Source: a virus
Length of the DNA stretch: 28,309 bases
Virus record (IMG/VR): IMGVR_UViG_3300037585_000348
Location: 1-28,309 of that record
Strand: one strand, 5' to 3'
Below, piece by piece: positions 3,298 to 24,428 of this stretch. Position 1 is the stretch's first letter; each line of letters opens with the position of its first letter. The position numbers and the translations under genes are program-made. The notes beneath the pieces are model-generated. The model was not told the origin of the DNA. It was given only the letters and a program-made list of their open reading frames with translations, and did not search any database.

Positions 3298-6200
3298 TAA
3301 GGTATAAGTATAAATTCAACTGTTGCTAAGTCGTTTGGTTTGTAATCTATTTTGTTTACTCTGTATTCTCTGTTTTTAATCATTACAGTATCAAAGAAAT
3401 TAAATGAGTTAATGTCAGAAGGACTTAAATTAACTTTCAAAGTCATAATTCTTGTGTCAGCATTATATAGTTCATAATAATAAGGAGACCAATATTTATT
3501 AAACAAATTATTCATAGCTGTACTCCCAAGTCCAGGCATATATTGACATTCCCCAAAATGAAAATCTGCTGTTGTAGCTGAAACACTTGGTACTTGTGAT
3601 AAGTGGCTAAATTGTAAAAATGTACTTGCGTCTTCAGCAGTACCACCATTTTGTGCAGGAATATAATAAGTGCAAGATGATAAAGTCTTTATTCCATTAT
3701 TATACATTATTCTAGGTGAATTATCAAAACCTTCAGTAGTTTGTGCATCAGCATTATAAGAATAAATAGCAGGGGTAATTAAATCAGGATATTGTGTCAT
3801 TAAAGGTTTAGGAACTGTTGCTGCAAAAGGTTCTGCTACAATTTCATCTTCTCCTGTTAATACTGTAAACGCTGTAGCGTCAAACTCTTTACTTCCATAT
3901 AAATGACCACCTACTGAGTTTTTATAGTTCATAAAAGGATAATCATCTTCATCTTCAACAAACTTGAAAATTGTATCTTTCTTTAAGTCTGTCAGGGGTT
4001 TTAATTTTATAGCTGTAATATCTATCTTATCTGTCCAATCGTAAGCAATACCTCTTGAAGCTAAACTTAAATCTGAAGTTGTACCACTTGATGTATTATG
4101 AATAAAAACATTTGAATAGGGTTCAAACAAAATATTATTAGGATTATCTTTATCAGGAATGGAAATCAAGTTAAACATTGTGATAATTCCTTTTAAAAAA
4201 TCCCATTGTCCTGTTTCACCTCGTAAGCTTTGAAATATTGCATTCCTAAGAACCCCTTGTATATTCAAAGACACATAAATTCTTACAGGAGTAGCTATTC
4301 CAACATCTTGACCACTTGGATAAGGATAAGTATTTAACCTAGCACGACCTGCAATAGTACTTTTCCATTGTAATTCTAAAGTGTCTCCTGCATTCATTAC
4401 TTGTGATAAATTTCCACTATAATAGTCATTTTGACCAATTGATTGAGGTAATCCGTTAATTAATATAGTATCAAAAACATCACTATAATTAGTTCCTCCA
4501 TTTGTTATTGTTATACCTGTAATTGCAGTTCCTGTCATTGTTACACTAAAAGTAGCTCCTGTTCCTGAATTTATACCACTTGATGCTATTGTAAGAGTAG
4601 GTGCTGAAGTATAATACCCACCTTCTACAATATTTGTTCCTGTTACTACACCATTTGTTTCAGTAAATTGTATAATAGCACTTCCTGTTGCAACCTGATT
4701 TTGATAAGCTAACGGTTGTGGAGTACCACCAGAAGGAGTATAAAGCCATCTAAACTGTAATGCTGATGGTGCTGAAGAAAATGTAGTTATATAACCTGAG
4801 AAGTCAAAATTTGCATTAGATTGACCTGAAGGACTAGTAAACCTATAGGTACTGTCATCATAACCAAAATCTGCACTAAAGTCGTCTTGTGATACAGGTA
4901 CATTTACCCAAGATGTAGTAGATAAAATAGTAGGCTGTCCTGATGTATATAAAGCAAACCCTGAAGTGTCTAATGTATTAGGATTAACATCACCACCACT
5001 AGACCAATTAAAATCCATATAAAGCTTTTCAAAATCAAAATCACCACCTGTAGCAATAGATGTGTTAAAAAAATCACTTTCATAAGTAAAAGGGATTTCA
5101 TCAAATATTCTATCTATAAGATACTTAATACTTATAAAAGGTCTGAAAGTACTTTCTAAATTTGGTATTACAGGGTAAGCTGTGGATGGGTTTACTGTAT
5201 ATTGATGTGTCCAATCTACAAAAGGAAATTTTATAGTGTTATTATCATCTCTGAAGCCTGAAGTATTAGGGAATGTAAATGTTGGTCCTGTTCCTGATCC
5301 ATTCCAACTATTTTGTATATTTGTTCTATTATATTCTAGCTCTAATTCACCAAAAGAAATATCTGCAAAAGTTTTATTTTCTAATATATCTTTTAAAGCT
5401 ACAACTTCAGAATAAAGATTTACATTGTAACTTATTTCTCCTTCTTTGTCAGACATATCTATAAGCCTTAAATATCCTTCAAATAATAAAAAACCATCTT
5501 GTTTTAAAATGCATTGTGTTTTAACATACGGGTTAAAGTTAAGCCCTGTATCTGTTCTTGTTACTTCAAAAATATTATCAAAGATTTGATTGTTTCTTTT
5601 TGTTGCAGGAAGTTTAAAAGCTTTTGAATAAGACTGAACTTTCTCAGCTACATTTTTAAAATCATCAACACTTAATGTTAAAGGGATATCTTCATCTTCA
5701 TAAAGGTCGCATATAACTTGACCATCTGCAAGGTCTGTAAAGACTAGATTTTGAGGATTAAGCGTATCAATTATTTTAATACTATTTACAATACAACTTT
5801 TACCTAATGCAGAGCCATCCCAATCAAAACTTGCAGTAGCACCCCCACCTGTATAAGTAAAGTTTTCTGTCATACTTCCAAGTGCAGGCGACCACAATTG
5901 AGACTTAAAAGCAAACCCTGTATCATCATACATATTAAACTGAAAATCCCCTGCATCTGAACTTCCAAAGTCTACAGTAATAGTATAATTCACTCCTACT
6001 GTAAGGTTAGATAGTTTCTGATATATTCCTGAATGATTTGGGGTTGTTACATAAGCACCACTAAATAAAACATTTCCACCTACAACCTGTGGTTGGGTAA
6101 TATTATAATAATAAGAACCCCCTGAAGTGTGGTATCTATACCAAGTATTTGGAATAGAAACAGGTTGATTAATTACTGCTAATTGCTGCACATCAGCTTG

Positions 6201-10206: not shown

Positions 10207-11418
10207 TTACTGTACATAATACTTCCCTGCATTAGGGTTATCTAAGTGATAAATAACATTATATCTAACACCATCAATTGCGTGGTTATAGTTGTCTACA
10301 TAAAGTTTAGAACCTTTGTCAGCGTATATATAATTGTTCAATTCTTTAGCTATGTTAGTACTCTCAGGAGTTATAATTAATTCATAGTCTTGCATACGAG
10401 TTATTCCACTTTCAATAGTTCCTTTTTTTACAGGTTTGATGTTTACTCCTAAATGTCTAAGGTCTGCTATTAGTCTAGGTTCTGCACTATCAGCAATGAT
10501 AAGTTTATTATCTACTTTGTCTAATATTATTTGAGCCAATTCGTTTGACTTCAATCCATTCTTATAGATATGTTCTTTTAAATATATCTTACGCTTTCTT
10601 TTATCTATAGCTACTTCAGTAAGGCTATCAGGATCAACACTAAAACCAAAGTCCATACCACAAGAAGTTTGTAAGCCATCAGGATTAAATTCTCCTATGC
10701 TCCAATTCTCAAATACAACTCCTTCTGCTTTATCTAACCAGCCGCCTAAGATTTTGTGCTGATACTTTTTAAAGTTTCTATGCTTTATGCTCTTAATACG
10801 CTCTAGGAAGCTCTGTGAGAGGTTTGTGATATTATCTAGGTAGTTGGTATGGATATAACATACATTGTCCTTAGAGCCATTAAAACCACCTTCTACACCT
10901 TTGTCCTCAAAAAACCTTTTATATATCCAATGTTCTTTAGTTACAGGGTTTAGTATTAATACAACTCTATTGTGTATGTTCTTTTCTCTTATACTTAAAT
11001 CAATAGTATCAAAGATATTCTCATCAACTAATTCTTCTGCCTCATCAAGTACCCAAGTACTTATTCCTTGTAAAGATTTTAGACTAGCTGTCTGATTACC
11101 TGCCGAGGTTTTAATACCTCTAAATAGAATATCTGAATTATTTTTTGTATTGACTACTTCTGCTTTATTAATACTAAAGACTTCATCAAACCCTAGCAGC
11201 CCTATCTTTTCTAAGAATTCAGGAATGATTGATAAGTGAGCTGATGTCATTGTAAAACGAGTAAAAAGAATTCTAATCCCTTTAGTCATTGTAAGTAAAG
11301 TCAAAAAAACTGTTACAGCAAAAGACTTGCCTGAACCTCTACCGCCTGTAATTATAAAGTAACGAGCATCAGAAGAAAATAATGGATTATATTTCTTATT
11401 CAGTATCAGTTTCAACAA
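10207..11418 (-). CDS. terL: Terminase large subunit
   Basis: This is a 403-aa packaging motor with nuclease (PBSX/Terminase_3-like). The ATPase domain has Walker A GGRGSGKS (25-32) and Walker B WVLDEAEEL (122-130). The RNase H-like nuclease domain shows the expected acidic residues in GMDFGFSVDP (D256), LIIADSAEPRLIADL (D310) and NHAIDGVRY (D382). Length fits the family, so it looks intact. The enzyme pumps DNA into proheads through the portal. Its ATG lies 23 nt inside the end of the small subunit gene. The portal gene, often next door in other phages, is far away on this map. Confidence 0.95.
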   Translation of the reverse strand: MLKLILNKKYNPLFSSDARYFIITGGRGSGKSFAVTVFLTLLTMTKGIRILFTRFTMTSAHLSIIPEFLEKIGLLGFDEVFSINKAEVVNTKNNSDILFRGIKTSAGNQTASLKSLQGISTWVLDEAEELVDENIFDTIDLSIREKNIHNRVVLILNPVTKEHWIYKRFFEDKGVEGGFNGSKDNVCYIHTNYLDNITNLSQSFLERIKSIKHRNFKKYQHKILGGWLDKAEGVVFENWSIGEFNPDGLQTSCGMDFGFSVDPDSLTEVAIDKRKRKIYLKEHIYKNGLKSNELAQIILDKVDNKLIIADSAEPRLIADLRHLGVNIKPVKKGTIESGITRMQDYELIITPESTNIAKELNNYIYADKGSKLYVDNYNHAIDGVRYNVIYHLDNPNAGKYYVQ

Positions 11419-11749
11419 ATGTTATTACAGGCATATTAATTGCTTTATCACCTGAAGTTATATCTACCTTATTTGTTTCATTCCAACCAAGCCTAGTCTT
11501 AGCTGCGTGTATTACAACTGATGGCACTTTATCCTTTACACATTCATAATACTTTGACTTAATAAAGTCCTGCTGTATGTTTTCTATTTCTTCAACCTTT
11601 GCTGCAAATTCTTCATCTTCTTTTAGCCACTTATAAAAGTTTGTTCTGCTTAGGTCAGTTGCCTTCAAAGCTGTAGTTATTACTCCTAGTGAACTTTCTA
11701 AAGCTTTGAGTAATCTCTCTTTGTTAATCTTTGTTCTATTTTGTTCCAT
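11396..11749 (-). CDS. terS: Terminase small subunit
   Basis: This 117-aa protein has an N-terminal helix-turn-helix (ERLLKALESSLGVITTALKA, then TDLSRTNFYKWLKEDEEF) as expected for the DNA-recognition subunit of terminase. A following helical region (KVEEIENIQQDFIKSKYYECV) could be the oligomerisation core. It directly precedes terL with overlap and follows the ABC-GNAT gene with a 14-nt overlap (ATGGAACAAAATAG). Motif plus position make the call good. Confidence 0.8.
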   Translation of the reverse strand: MEQNRTKINKERLLKALESSLGVITTALKATDLSRTNFYKWLKEDEEFAAKVEEIENIQQDFIKSKYYECVKDKVPSVVIHAAKTRLGWNETNKVDITSGDKAINMPVITFVETDTE

Positions 11750-12815
11750 TTTTAAAATATCTAAATGCTGCTGTTATTCTATTTTTAGTACTTGTTTTAT
11801 TGAATTCTACCATTTTTTGTTTACCTGTATTTCTACCAAAAAAATAACATTTCCAATTTTTATGTTTTTTGAGTGAAAATATTAAACTTGGCGCTGATGT
11901 TGTTATACCAAATACAAAATTATTATCAGTATATTTCTTTGCTATATAGTCTAAAAGTCTTCCTCCTATTCCTATTCCTTGATAATCAGGCAATACTACT
12001 AATCTATGAACTTTTTTCAAATTAGGTTTTTTATTAGGTAGATGTAATATACTTATAAAACCTGCTATTTGTTCATTTACATAAGCAACATATGTATGTG
12101 CTGCATTATTATGACTATGACTTAAATAGTGGTGTTTAGCAAATATTCTCCAAATTGACTTATCTCTTGTTTTGAATATTTCAAATTTAACTTTAGGTCT
12201 ATTTTTTTTTTGCCCTTCAAGTATTTGAAAGGTCATACTGTCAGTATTAAACACCCAATCAGGCAATAGCCAATCTTGTACGTCGTGATGACAAGTTACT
12301 GCAATAAATTGCTTGTTTGATTTTCTAATTGCTTTTTGCATTGCATAAGAACCTATTTTAGCAACATTACGGTCAACTACTGAAGTAAATTCATCAAATA
12401 CTATTAGTTTATCTTCTTTTAAAAGGGCATTAGCTAAATCAACCCTCATTTTTTGACCATTAGATAATACTGAATATGGCTTTAACCAACTAGGTGGTGA
12501 ACTGAACCCTACACTATTAAATATTTTTGTTATATCATCTACTGACGCCGAATCGGGCATATCATCTAAAATAGTTTCTGCTTGATAGTTAAAATTAGTT
12601 ACATAAGCATCTTCAAATAATTCTTTTGCTATCGTAGTTTTACCTGTACCACTATTACCGACTATTAAACCAATTTTCCAATCTTTAGGCATATCTATAT
12701 TGCCTTCAAAATGTTCTTTTATATGTTCTGTTTGTAAGTCAAATTTGCCCATTACTGAAGCAACTCTAAATGTTTTTTTTGGCTTACTCTCTCTTAAAAT
12801 GTTAAAATTCGGCAT
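11736..12815 (-). CDS. ABC-type ATPase fused to GNAT (Mom-like) acyltransferase domain
   Basis: This is a 359-aa two-domain protein. Residues 1-200 are an ABC-family ATPase: Walker A GNSGTGKT (53-60), signature LSNGQ (117-121), Walker B LIVFDE (137-142) and an H-loop at HH 176-177. There are no membrane segments, so it is not a transporter. Residues about 210-359 are a GNAT fold: HHYL (228-231), HRLVVLPDYQGIGIGGRLL (270-288; acyl-CoA binding loop QGIGIG). The HHYL start recalls the Mom branch of GNATs; phage Mu Mom modifies adenine in DNA. With a ParB-like gene before it (22-nt overlap) and terminase after it, I infer a DNA-modifying or DNA-scanning enzyme that protects phage DNA. A protein-modifying role is the alternative. 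Confidence 0.8.
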   Translation of the reverse strand: MPNFNILRESKPKKTFRVASVMGKFDLQTEHIKEHFEGNIDMPKDWKIGLIVGNSGTGKTTIAKELFEDAYVTNFNYQAETILDDMPDSASVDDITKIFNSVGFSSPPSWLKPYSVLSNGQKMRVDLANALLKEDKLIVFDEFTSVVDRNVAKIGSYAMQKAIRKSNKQFIAVTCHHDVQDWLLPDWVFNTDSMTFQILEGQKKNRPKVKFEIFKTRDKSIWRIFAKHHYLSHSHNNAAHTYVAYVNEQIAGFISILHLPNKKPNLKKVHRLVVLPDYQGIGIGGRLLDYIAKKYTDNNFVFGITTSAPSLIFSLKKHKNWKCYFFGRNTGKQKMVEFNKTSTKNRITAAFRYFKNGTK

Positions 12816-13312
12816 TTATATCCTTTTTGTGTTAATTCATTAAATACTTGTTCTTGTTCTCTTTCTGAATTTAGTTCTATTTCAACTCTATATTCTTCTG
12901 ATATATTATTTGAAATATCATTGACTTCATTATTTTGTTCATCATCTTCATTTTGCCATACATCTAAACCCCACTCAGCAAGTTGAACGCTATCCCATTC
13001 ATTACCTAGCATATCCCATTCCCACTCTCCAAAACCTACATTATCTTTAACTATAAACTCTTTCTTTTGTTCTTCAGTAAGTCCTTCTGCTACTTCTATC
13101 CATACTTCTTTTAGTCCTGCGTCTTTACTTGCCTTTAATCTCATATTGCCACCAAGCACCATCATATCTTCATCAACTACAATTGGTCTAAGCTTTAACA
13201 TCTCAGGAAATTCCTGTATTGACTTAACTAGCTTTTTAAACTTATCGTTCTTAATTATTCTAGGATTGTCAGGGTTTCCCTTTACTTTACTTATCTTAAC
13301 TTGTTGTTTCAT
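12794..13312 (-). CDS. ParB-like nuclease-domain protein
   Basis: This 172-aa protein carries a ParB/Srx-type N-terminal domain: NPDNPR (13-18), KKLVKSIQEFPEMLKLRPIV (26-45) and VLGGNMR (52-58), followed by LTEEQKKEFIVKDN (78-91). FGEWEWDML (94-102) and WDSVQLAEWGLDVW are typical of the phage/MTase-linked ParB group. The C-terminus is acidic and then ends in a small strand-rich part. Such domains bind DNA or CTP and in phages often sit beside DNA methylases or terminases. Here it overlaps the ABC-GNAT gene, so the two are likely made together. No HTH domain is present, so plasmid-type partition is unlikely. Confidence 0.8.
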   Translation of the reverse strand: MKQQVKISKVKGNPDNPRIIKNDKFKKLVKSIQEFPEMLKLRPIVVDEDMMVLGGNMRLKASKDAGLKEVWIEVAEGLTEEQKKEFIVKDNVGFGEWEWDMLGNEWDSVQLAEWGLDVWQNEDDEQNNEVNDISNNISEEYRVEIELNSEREQEQVFNELTQKGYKCRILTF

Positions 13313-14411: not shown

Positions 14412-14558
14412 TTATGAAGGAAATATTGCTACTAGTTTTTCATTCTTTTGCTTTTTTTCATCTGCTTTTTTTGGCTTCCTTTTTTTAACAATTATTGTCT
14501 GAGAAAACCCAAACATCATTTCAAAAGAAGAACACTTGTCAGGGTCATACATTTTCAT
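14412..14558 (-). CDS. Small basic protein (48 aa), overlaps sigma-like gene
   Basis: This is a short gene reading MKMYDPDKCSSFEMMFGFSQ, then a Lys-rich stretch (VKKRKPKKADEKKQKNEK) and VAIFPS at the end. It begins 14 nt inside the sigma-like gene and ends just before the Cys-rich gene start, filling the gap exactly, and the other minus-strand frames are not better. The second ATG (14552) is an alternative start. The Lys-rich part may bind nucleic acid; function unknown. Confidence 0.5.
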   Translation of the reverse strand: MKMYDPDKCSSFEMMFGFSQTIIVKKRKPKKADEKKQKNEKLVAIFPS

Positions 14559-15096
14559 TCAATTCTTTTTTTAATATTTCTCTTACTTTATCTATTGTAG
14601 TAAATAAACTGTTTCTACTTATTCCTGTTTTCTTTGCTAAACTATCTAATGTTTCTCCTGAGTAGTAAAGCTCAAATATCTTTTTATCGTACCAAGTTTG
14701 CTTATCTAATACCTTATCAATTTCTTCTAACTTTTCCCATTTATAGTTATCTTCTTTTTGTTCAGGTAAATTATAGATACTATTATGAAAAGCGTTCTGA
14801 GTATAGCTTGGTGTATATACTCCTACTAAATTAGTGTAGTACTTCTTATACTTATAATAAAAAGGACTTCTTACGCTTGTTAAACTTCTTCTTAGTACTA
14901 CTGCACCGTAACCTTTAATTCCTTTTACACCATCTTTTTCATAAATGTCTTTTAAAGTAGTAGGGTTCATTTGTAGAAAATAAATCATAAGTTCCTGAAC
15001 AGCGTCATTAATTGCTTCTTCATCTTGCGTTATACCATAACACATCTTTCTAAAGAAAGAACTTAGCTTTGATATTTCTGCATATATCTCAGTCAT
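14545..15096 (-). CDS. RNA polymerase sigma-factor-like regulator
   Basis: This 183-aa protein is built like a small (ECF-type) sigma factor. Residues about 10-50 (FFRKMCYGITQDEEAINDAV, QELMIYFLQM) resemble region 2, which contacts core polymerase and the -10 element. Residues about 138-178 (WYDKKIFELYYSGETLDSLA, KKTGISRNSLFTTIDKVREI) form a region 4-like helix-turn-helix. I infer a late-gene regulator that redirects host RNA polymerase, possibly to the recurring TCTATTATATA motif. The link to that motif is a hypothesis. A non-sigma HTH protein is the alternative. It starts 8 nt inside the preceding gene. Confidence 0.65.
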   Translation of the reverse strand: MTEIYAEISKLSSFFRKMCYGITQDEEAINDAVQELMIYFLQMNPTTLKDIYEKDGVKGIKGYGAVVLRRSLTSVRSPFYYKYKKYYTNLVGVYTPSYTQNAFHNSIYNLPEQKEDNYKWEKLEEIDKVLDKQTWYDKKIFELYYSGETLDSLAKKTGISRNSLFTTIDKVREILKKELNENV

Positions 15097-22535: not shown

Positions 22536-24428
22536 TTATCTTGGTTCTAAAAATCCGTTATTCTTCATTCTCTTAGGTGCTTTTGCAACTAGCCCACTAT
22601 TTCTTCTTAAAGTAAATCCTTCACTAATAGCTTTTACATCTGATATAATTTGACTGCTTTTAATATTAGACTTAGCATTTCTTAATGATGTCTTGTACAC
22701 AATTCTTTTGAAATAGTGATGACAGTTACCACCGCCTTTAAAAAGCCAGATTGAGTAAGTTGCACTTCTTCCTTTAGGTCCCCAACCTTTATTTACAGGC
22801 TTATTTGTTAAAGCTAATAAATCTTCCTTCCTGTAAACTTTTGAAGCCGACATCATTAATCTGCAAAAATCTCTTGTTTCACCTTCTTGACTTAGAGCAT
22901 TGTCTTTAGTGTACATATACCTAACTTTATAGTAGTCGTTATAGTCTTTATTTACTCCATCTTGAGCACTTCTTGCGTTAGGTCTAGCAGTTCCTGTAGA
23001 TGCTAGTTCTGTTTTACCATTAGCAATATTATTAAGTTCTGCTTCAAAGTCAAAATCTTCGTGTTCATCATTTGCATTTTCTTCATCTACTATTTCCCAA
23101 TCTTCAGGAATATCTTCACCAAAGTCTGCAATAAAACTTTCTAATTCAGTAAAGTCATTATCTGAATTTTTACATTCACATTTTTCTACTTCAGAAAGCT
23201 TCACATCTTGTTCTACTGTATCTTCATCTCCTAGAGGTTCAAGTCCTAAGTCAGCTCTTATTTCGTCAATCGTCATAACTTCTCTAATAGTTTTACTATC
23301 AAATTGAACTGTAATAGGTTTTAATTGCACAAACTCAACAGGCAAGTCCATATTGTTTACTGAGAATATAGTTTGTAAAGTGTTTAAGATGTTTAATTGG
23401 AAACCTCTTACTACTGTATTTTGGTAGAAATTAGCAGCGTTTATAAGTTCATCAGCATTACTAGAAAAACCATTGTTTGTATCAATACCCATTAAAGTTT
23501 TAGATGTAATTCTGTGAGCTGCACAAATATTAGAAACTAAAAGCTCTTGTAAAGCTAAGTATTGTTTGTCAGCATCAGAAACACTTATAGGAGTTATTTC
23601 AGGAGTTCTAGTCTTATCGTCTGAGAATGTTAAAATAAACTTCCCTGAGTTAGAAGCTCCTGTGAACTTCTCTACTAAACTTTGTTCTATCTGTCTTCTC
23701 TCCTCTTGCGTAGGGATACCATTAGCAAAAGAAACAAAATAGCTCCCACTAAATCCATTTTCTATATTGTTTAAATGAAACTCTGCAACTTTTTGGTCTA
23801 CTAAAGCCCAATTGCAACCTGCTATATAATCAGGAGTATGGTAGATATCCATATTAGGACTGTAAGCACCTGAGTAAAGTAATTGACTCCCTGAAGTTCT
23901 ATCATTAACATTGAAAGCAGCAATAGGATAAGGTTTATTTGTTCTAGTGTTTCCCCAATCAGCACTTATAAAGAAAGTATCAACCTTACCCATTTCATTA
24001 GGTCTTCCTGCTCTTACACGTTCTACAGGGATGTGATACACCTCAGCTATTTCTGTTCTATCTCTGTTCCATACAATATGTAAAGCATATGCTCCTTGAA
24101 GTTTAAAATCAAAAGCAACCTTTTTAATTACTTGGTGTAAACTTTCATTTGAATTTGCGTGTCTAAGAAACTTCTTTAATTTTACATAAGCTTCTAAATT
24201 AATAGCGTCTTCTTCTTCACAAACTAAGTCTTCACCTGCTATCATTTCTGCAGTCTGATTAACGATTGCAGCGTGTGTAGAACTGTTGTAGTAAAGGTCA
24301 ATTAAGAACTGAGGATATAAGTTTCTCCAATCTTCAGTTCCGTACTCTATGTAATCACGACCTCTTACTTCTTGTACTATTGGTGCAGTTGAAGTTTCTA
24401 AGTTAATGCTTAATATTGTATCTTTCAT
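22536..24428 (-). CDS. Portal protein with C-terminal MuF-like Cys/His domain
   Basis: This is a 630-aa protein. Residues 1-410 look like a phage portal: an N-terminal part with NSSTHAAIVNQTAEMIAGED, a central region with YHIPVERVRAG (131-141) and FANGIPTQEERRQIEQSLVE (234-253), and the wing/stem ISVSDADKQYLALQELLVSN ... ICAAHRITSKTLMGI (281-315). An acidic linker (about 410-470; CECKNSDND) is followed by a separate domain at 500-580: TRDFCRLMMSASKVYRKEDL, VNKGWGPKG and IWLFKGGGNCHHYFKR, with C522, C569, H570 and H571. This recalls MuF-type minor head proteins fused to portal. The portal is the DNA entry gate; the extra domain may be internal or bind metal. Confidence 0.85.
   Translation of the reverse strand: MKDTILSINLETSTAPIVQEVRGRDYIEYGTEDWRNLYPQFLIDLYYNSSTHAAIVNQTAEMIAGEDLVCEEEDAINLEAYVKLKKFLRHANSNESLHQVIKKVAFDFKLQGAYALHIVWNRDRTEIAEVYHIPVERVRAGRPNEMGKVDTFFISADWGNTRTNKPYPIAAFNVNDRTSGSQLLYSGAYSPNMDIYHTPDYIAGCNWALVDQKVAEFHLNNIENGFSGSYFVSFANGIPTQEERRQIEQSLVEKFTGASNSGKFILTFSDDKTRTPEITPISVSDADKQYLALQELLVSNICAAHRITSKTLMGIDTNNGFSSNADELINAANFYQNTVVRGFQLNILNTLQTIFSVNNMDLPVEFVQLKPITVQFDSKTIREVMTIDEIRADLGLEPLGDEDTVEQDVKLSEVEKCECKNSDNDFTELESFIADFGEDIPEDWEIVDEENANDEHEDFDFEAELNNIANGKTELASTGTARPNARSAQDGVNKDYNDYYKVRYMYTKDNALSQEGETRDFCRLMMSASKVYRKEDLLALTNKPVNKGWGPKGRSATYSIWLFKGGGNCHHYFKRIVYKTSLRNAKSNIKSSQIISDVKAISEGFTLRRNSGLVAKAPKRMKNNGFLEPR

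Follow-up and report, generated by a model that had tools for sequence, protein, structure and literature searches.

Recoding signals at the domain junction of a phage ABC ATPase-GNAT gene suggest a dnaX-like gene with two products beside the terminase genes

An acetyltransferase-fold (GNAT) domain coupled to an ABC ATPase is predicted to acylate a DNA base in the consulted part of one article, which names phage pT24 (PMC7824862, citing 2013 work of Iyer, Aravind and co-workers). The consulted part of another describes the 'ParB-Tls locus', composed of a ParB-like gene, a modification gene and TerL, in which ParB is thought to direct modification at packaging (PMC6536676, on Iyer 2013). Two isoforms of one ATPase, tau and gamma, are made from dnaX by slippage on A9/A10 or by -1 frameshifting, with the mechanism differing by bacterium (PMC5009743, PMC3711429). 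Both the locus type and the DNA-acylation prediction have already been published, and the new element is the set of recoding signals at the ABC|GNAT join; our literature searches on frameshifting in the ABC-GNAT family returned nothing, which is not proof of absence, and found no test of the DNA-modification prediction. From sequence comparison, we consider it about 75% probable that this gene resembles dnaX in encoding two programmed products, ABC by itself and the ABC-GNAT fusion, that act as part of a DNA-modifying machine.

The window, i.e., the whole stretch of DNA analysed, corresponds to an entire IMG/VR virus record of 28,309 bases, the record itself being incomplete. The module lies on the minus strand, where overlapping genes follow the order ParB-like, ABC-GNAT, TerS and TerL, and its features are as follows.

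12794..13312, minus strand: ParB-like gene (ParB/Srx N-terminal domain), 172 aa, first in the module; ParB_N at 26.5 bits, above the cut-off
11736..12815, minus strand: ABC ATPase-GNAT gene, predicted long isoform of 359 aa when A10 is read faithfully; Pfam and PHROG matches, AlphaFold2 model
12216..12815, minus strand: soluble ABC ATPase domain, residues 1-200, common to both predicted isoforms; ABC_tran, Foldseek matches to ABC nucleotide-binding domains
12202..12211, minus strand: A10 slippery tract at the ABC|GNAT junction, CAA AAA AAA AAT (then AGA); conserved in homologs
12199..12201, minus strand: -1-frame stop TAG directly after the tract; an A11 transcript would give a 205-aa product (computed)
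12122..12211, minus strand: dual-coded stretch in which the GNAT+1 frame is open, giving a short-isoform tail of ~26 codons (...GQKKIDLKLNLKYSKQEISQFGEYLLNTTI); frame scan
12122..12124, minus strand: TAA in the +1 frame, a conserved stop that overlaps the HYL Leu codon of GNAT; stop-position count
12122..12815, minus strand: predicted short isoform, ABC plus tail, 230 aa, one A lost (computed product)
11739..12200, minus strand: GNAT domain, residues 206-359, with an intact acyl-CoA loop QGIGIG; Acetyltransf_1 E 9e-11, domain model, PDB matches
11396..11749, minus strand: terminase small subunit (TerS), a weak match; PHROG 4044 E 2e-5
10207..11418, minus strand: terminase large subunit (TerL); Terminase_3 E 1.4e-30

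The ParB-like and ABC-GNAT genes overlap by 22 nt, and the end of ABC-GNAT overlaps TerS by 14 nt; the first-pass annotation had described an overlap with the ParB-like gene followed by terminase genes with a 14-nt overlap, and the coordinates agree. The ParB-like protein also matched PHROG 940, 498 and 620 (ParB and ParB-methylase families) at E 1e-23 or better, and PHROG 11143 spanned the entire ABC-GNAT protein (E 3e-99). More than 300 relatives were found in IMG/VR. Among 287 loci, a ParB-like ORF lay directly upstream of ABC-GNAT in 282, with an overlap of exactly 22 nt in 274, and TerL was matched downstream in 163 of the 241 loci with enough sequence. Given the PHROG match, the number of relatives and the near-constant ParB overlap, the gene and its arrangement are not a chance occurrence. 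Elsewhere in the window, head maturation protease-like and portal genes (111-824 and 22536-24428) lie at opposite ends of the record, distant from the terminase genes, and a weak sigma-factor-like match (PHROG 36/1740) was observed at 14545-15096, a few genes upstream of the ParB module.

The domain architecture read earlier from the letters was recovered in full, with Walker A at G53-T60 (GNSGTGKT), LSNGQ at 117-121, a Walker B VFDE ending at E142, HHYL at 228-231 and QGIGIG at 279-284, and both Pfam ABC_tran and GNAT scored above their curated cut-offs in the 359-aa protein. The AlphaFold2 model had a mean pLDDT of 84.8. An ABC transporter was rejected as an identity for the protein, since the best NCBIfam model reached 39.3 bits against a cut-off of 380, no permease was present and the neighbours are ParB and terminase genes. 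PADLOC returned weak matches of the ParB-like and ABC-GNAT proteins to parts of the mad3/mad8 and methylase models (best E 8e-11), and tblastn matched ABC-GNAT to a protein of phage pT24 (E 2e-43). In Tenacibaculum phage pT24 (L100), two ABC ORFs are annotated within 3360-4532 (3360-4121 and 4191-4532), the first of which already passes HHYL; from its sequence, the gene appears to be interrupted within the GNAT domain.

The GNAT part had been labelled Mom-like, and this label did not hold. Its profile aligned to Mu Mom in hhalign with a probability of 1.2% over 14 columns, and PHROG 1384, which Mu Mom matched at 8e-84, was not matched by the window GNAT. With the GNAT model alone, the fold matches were ordinary GNATs, including RimI, Ard1 and Naa50; the modelled GNAT part looks generic, a general fold that leaves the substrate unspecified. 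Grouping with N-terminal protein acetylases, together with normal bases in virion DNA, had been named beforehand as the outcome that would count against Mom. The outcome observed corresponds to half of that pair. The RimI-type NCBIfam TIGR01575 scored 25.6 bits, under its cut-off of 86.4. The broader proposal, a ParB-associated ABC-GNAT modification enzyme next to the terminase, is close to the published prediction (PMC7824862, PMC6536676).

The A10 run at the junction, the -1-frame TAG behind it and the open +1 frame had not been part of the first-pass annotation. The run was exactly A10 at the same codon position in all 80 close homologs (67-100% identical), and among 131 distinct A-tract sequences it was A10 in frame in 119. 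The out-of-frame natural variants were A11 (four sequences), A12 (one), and A9 or A10 with GNAT in the -1 frame (six); homopolymer lengths taken from single assemblies may be wrong, and lone A11 or A12 alleles could be errors. The window tract has the form required for transcriptional slippage, i.e., a homopolymer of about nine or more A or T with no need for RNA structure. No conserved RNA structure was predicted around A10 in the window clade, which disfavours a structure-stimulated -1 site there, and a release-factor-2-type site (Shine-Dalgarno element, 3-nt spacer and CTT) was absent from the window junction. Directly after the tract, TAG or TAA was found in the -1 frame in 117 of the 119 A10 sequences. 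One relative (L222) carries an in-frame TAA shortly before A10 (GTT TAA GCG CAA AAA AAA AAT), where the Muribaculum relative (L318) has GAA; judged from the sequence, this is either a broken copy or a stop-codon reassignment.

The few A9, A11 and A12 alleles, and the fact that homopolymers are typical contingency loci, would also suit phase variation, in which the DNA length of the run mutates and switches GNAT on or off between virions. We keep this as a rival reading but consider it very unlikely, given that 119 of the 131 relatives keep exactly A10 in frame and that the same short frame is maintained elsewhere by stem-assisted -1 and Shine-Dalgarno (SD)-CTT signals, which would not be expected to switch in this manner.

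The GNAT+1 frame was open for at least 24 codons from the junction in 71 of 71 A-tract representatives, compared with a mean of 7% over all gene positions, and the junction was the sole place in the gene where this frame was open in nearly all of them. Resampling of synonymous codons, with amino acids and codon use kept as observed, predicted 33 open cases against the 71 found. The +1 stop at the HYL Leu codon was likewise found in 71 of 71, against 31.8 expected under the amino-acid-conditioned null. The sequences are related, so significance values calculated as if they were independent are inflated.

These counts also bear on the simplest alternative, a plain in-frame ABC-GNAT fusion with one product, whose A run or motif would result merely from the use of A-rich codons and from constraint on the protein (QKKN and LRRP linkers). 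The window gene is indeed in frame, and AAA, AAT and CAA are common codons (85-89%). However, codons 202-205 (Q-K-K-N) showed no synonymous change in 36 of 36 representatives (<90% identity), while other conserved K/N/Q/E/R columns varied, and the +1 frame and its stop lie well above the synonymous null. Relatives whose frames require a shift, and relatives that retain an SD motif over changing amino acids, both described below, likewise argue against a single product, and we regard this alternative as highly improbable. Two conserved reading frames and recoding-type signals meet at the join, and, judged from these sequences, it is very probable that slippage occurs and that both proteins are made.

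The +1 site of prfB, the gene for release factor 2, consists of an SD-like element, a 3-nt spacer and a CTT shift codon. A similar arrangement characterized relatives around Pseudoalteromonas phage SL25, in which the gene is in frame and the junction read NGG-RGG-NNN-CTT/GTT/CAT in 45 of 46 viral representatives; the exception (L231) has the same elements shifted by one codon. The junction Leu codon was CTT in 42 of the 46, with other Leu columns being mixed, and the SD motif was kept while the amino acids beneath it varied (RG, RR and WR). The +1 frame was open in all 46, compared with a mean of 16%, and the +1 stop fell at HYL in 44 of 45 (15.6 expected under the amino-acid-conditioned null). 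Loci from bacterial genomes (L319-L397) gave a similar picture, with the SD motif and CTT or GTT in 64 of 79 and the stop at HYL in 64 of 65 (18.7 expected under the same null). The genomes with such sites included actinobacterial, planctomycete and proteobacterial ones, and GC-rich actinobacteria have the form TGG AGG TCG GTT CAA CCC. A +1 shift at the SD/CTT site would yield the short form, and continued reading in frame 0 the long one. The A site holds a sense codon (mostly CGG, AGG or CAA) instead of a stop, so the efficiency of the shift may be low. In Spirosoma sp. 48-14 (L328), GNAT lies in another frame and the CGGAGGTCACTG element is present outside the ABC frame; this locus is possibly an intermediate between recoding designs.

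A third design was found in Streptococcus and Lactococcus phages and related viral contigs, where the ABC frame itself enters the short tail and stops at HYL, and GNAT lies in the -1 frame. Among the sequences already matching the slippery pattern, 14 of 14 had a slippery heptamer (G_GTT_TTT, A_AAT_TTT, A_GTT_TTT or G_GTC_CCC), a spacer of exactly 6 nt and a perfect 6-bp stem, in which CCCCAC or GCCCAC pairs with GTGGGG or GTGGGC 30 or 43 nt further. The default product here would be the short form, with a -1 shift giving the fusion. An independent start of the GNAT part was rejected, since no ATG, GTG or TTG preceded HYL in 17 of the 18 -1-frame ORFs listed (L110 has one ATG). Sequencing error was rejected as a general cause of the shifted frames, as many records share the shift at an identical position and the stem covaries. 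The two-frame pattern recurs across independent designs, also where GC content exceeds 60%, and 18 of 19 additional members, many being divergent, likewise have the +1 stop on HYL. The members fitting poorly were PX29 (stop position), L222 (the in-frame TAA) and Oenococcus phage vB_OeS_unk162 (L084, slip site); in the last (3565-3700), GNAT lies a -1 shift away from the ABC frame, but the GTT_TTT-spacer-stem signal of its relatives is absent.

Relatives were widely distributed, with 79 GenBank phage records among the matches listed and hosts ranging from Lactococcus and Streptococcus to Gordonia, Leptospira and Porphyromonas; all counts of relatives refer to sampled best matches of the collection scans. 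Many of the relatives in bacterial genomes were planctomycete and actinobacterial. Two of them (L352 and L337), read gene by gene, have downstream ORFs that look like terminase and are thus likely prophages. In Pseudomonas phage Komp_PAO1_1 and a Porphyromonas phage (L098 4574-5191 and L092 4628-5101), a gene annotated as phosphoribosylglycinamide formyltransferase directly follows ABC-GNAT, and no ParB-like neighbour is annotated; this gene is possibly a second modification-pathway enzyme.

The signal type appeared to track Shine-Dalgarno use. A GGAG or GAGG motif within 20 nt upstream was found for none of the 33 window genes (111-28305), which, from the sequence, would be expected for a phage of hosts without Shine-Dalgarno initiation. 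They were rare in A-tract loci (5% of ORFs) and commoner in the SD-CTT and -1 clades, at 27% and 46%, respectively. A shift driven by an SD element would fail where ribosomes ignore that element, and an A tract would work there; the rarity of SD sites in A-tract loci fits the use of an A tract in place of an SD-driven site. In a quick tree, SD-CTT forms were widespread and included early-branching lineages, the -1 design was confined to one clade, and the A tracts shared a large group with the -1 clade and some SD-CTT members. Tentatively, and with somewhat less than an even chance, we propose a second dnaX-like family, in which phages of several bacterial phyla need the ABC ATPase both alone and joined to GNAT and swap at least three unrelated recoding signals but keep the short frame and its stop, the isoform ratio sets the composition of a ParB-bound DNA-acylating machine at packaging, and the signal type follows host Shine-Dalgarno use.

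In the window, RNA-polymerase slippage on A10 would switch the product, with ribosome slippage being less likely: A10 transcripts would encode the 359-aa fusion, A9 transcripts the 230-aa short form and A11 transcripts the 205-aa form ending at TAG. The retention of the same two predicted products in very different phages, by unlike signals, suggests a machine of two parts that works next to DNA packaging. ABC domains act in pairs, and mixed short/long dimers are proposed on this basis; by analogy with dnaX tau/gamma, we give roughly even odds to the formation of mixed oligomers. Contacts between ABC domains would join short and long subunits in an ATP-driven, ParB-associated machine on DNA, in which motors outnumber GNATs. 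The simplest use of two products would be mixed dimers that carry a single GNAT, or more motor than enzyme. ParB would provide the DNA contact.

The GNAT frame that overlaps the short tail largely determines the amino acids of the tail, which may do no more than terminate the protein. With no obvious independent conservation of this tail, the recoding could be purely regulatory, limiting a costly or toxic GNAT, with a short protein that has no role of its own. We find this unlikely: with its stop position conserved and its ABC domain intact, the short product looks like a stable ATPase, and a weaker start signal would serve equally to limit GNAT.

For the two-product machine favoured here, the GNAT would acylate a base of the phage DNA just before packaging. 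The assignment of a DNA base as the substrate draws on the gene neighbourhood and is plausible, its chance falling just short of even. Two products could also be made with the GNAT acetylating a host or phage protein, e.g., RNA polymerase or terminase. The fold and sequence matches to RimI/Ard1-type GNATs and the absent relation to Mom are in line with a protein substrate, as is the phage GNAT Rac, which targets RNA polymerase according to the consulted part of PMC7824862. The near-constant ParB partner, the ParB-Tls position that is common to DNA methylases in the consulted part of PMC6536676, and the presence of TmcA, a nucleobase-acetylating ATPase-GNAT, among the full-length fold matches (TM 0.30) argue the other way, and a protein substrate seems to us a serious but doubtful alternative.

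If the main reading is correct, ABC-GNAT would join dnaX as a second widespread gene whose requirement for two isoforms persists while the signals producing them change, and the family would offer a natural comparison of interchangeable frameshift mechanisms, including an RF2-like site on a sense codon. It would also account for the GenBank annotation of several of these genes as an 'ABC transporter' ORF plus a separate 'hypothetical' or 'GNAT' ORF. The DNA-modification prediction would become directly testable, and experiments that express only the fusion could lack the short form as a required partner.

Among known systems, the predicted ABC-GNAT acylation system shares the same two domains and the phage setting, with pT24 as a detected relative; frameshifting is not mentioned in the consulted part of that description (PMC7824862), and the conserved junction signals, the predicted short isoform and the nearly fixed 22-nt ParB overlap are added here. 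The window shares with the ParB-Tls locus the order of ParB, modification gene and TerL, but its modification gene is ABC-GNAT rather than a methylase, and no ParB-fused methylase is present in the window. Mu Mom also belongs to the GNAT superfamily and acts just before packaging, whereas its profile has no detectable similarity to the window GNAT and no ABC partner is annotated beside it. TmcA, the tRNA(Met) cytidine acetyltransferase (2zpa), likewise joins an ATPase to a GNAT and acetylates a nucleobase; however, its ATPase is helicase-type rather than ABC, it acts on tRNA, and the superposition is weak (TM 0.30). The RF2-like relatives share with prfB the SD element, the 3-nt spacer and CTT (AGGGGG-TAT-CTT in L299), but their A site holds a sense codon, the long product comes from frame 0, and the window itself carries a different signal. 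The closest parallel in gene design is dnaX, likewise one ATPase gene with long and short isoforms and interchangeable mechanisms, and the present gene resembles it in that selection at the nucleotide level acts on a slippery signal between two domains and that an alternative frame stays open to a conserved stop. ABC-GNAT differs from dnaX in belonging to another protein family and adds the SD-CTT +1 design and a tail of ~26 codons with a conserved stop.
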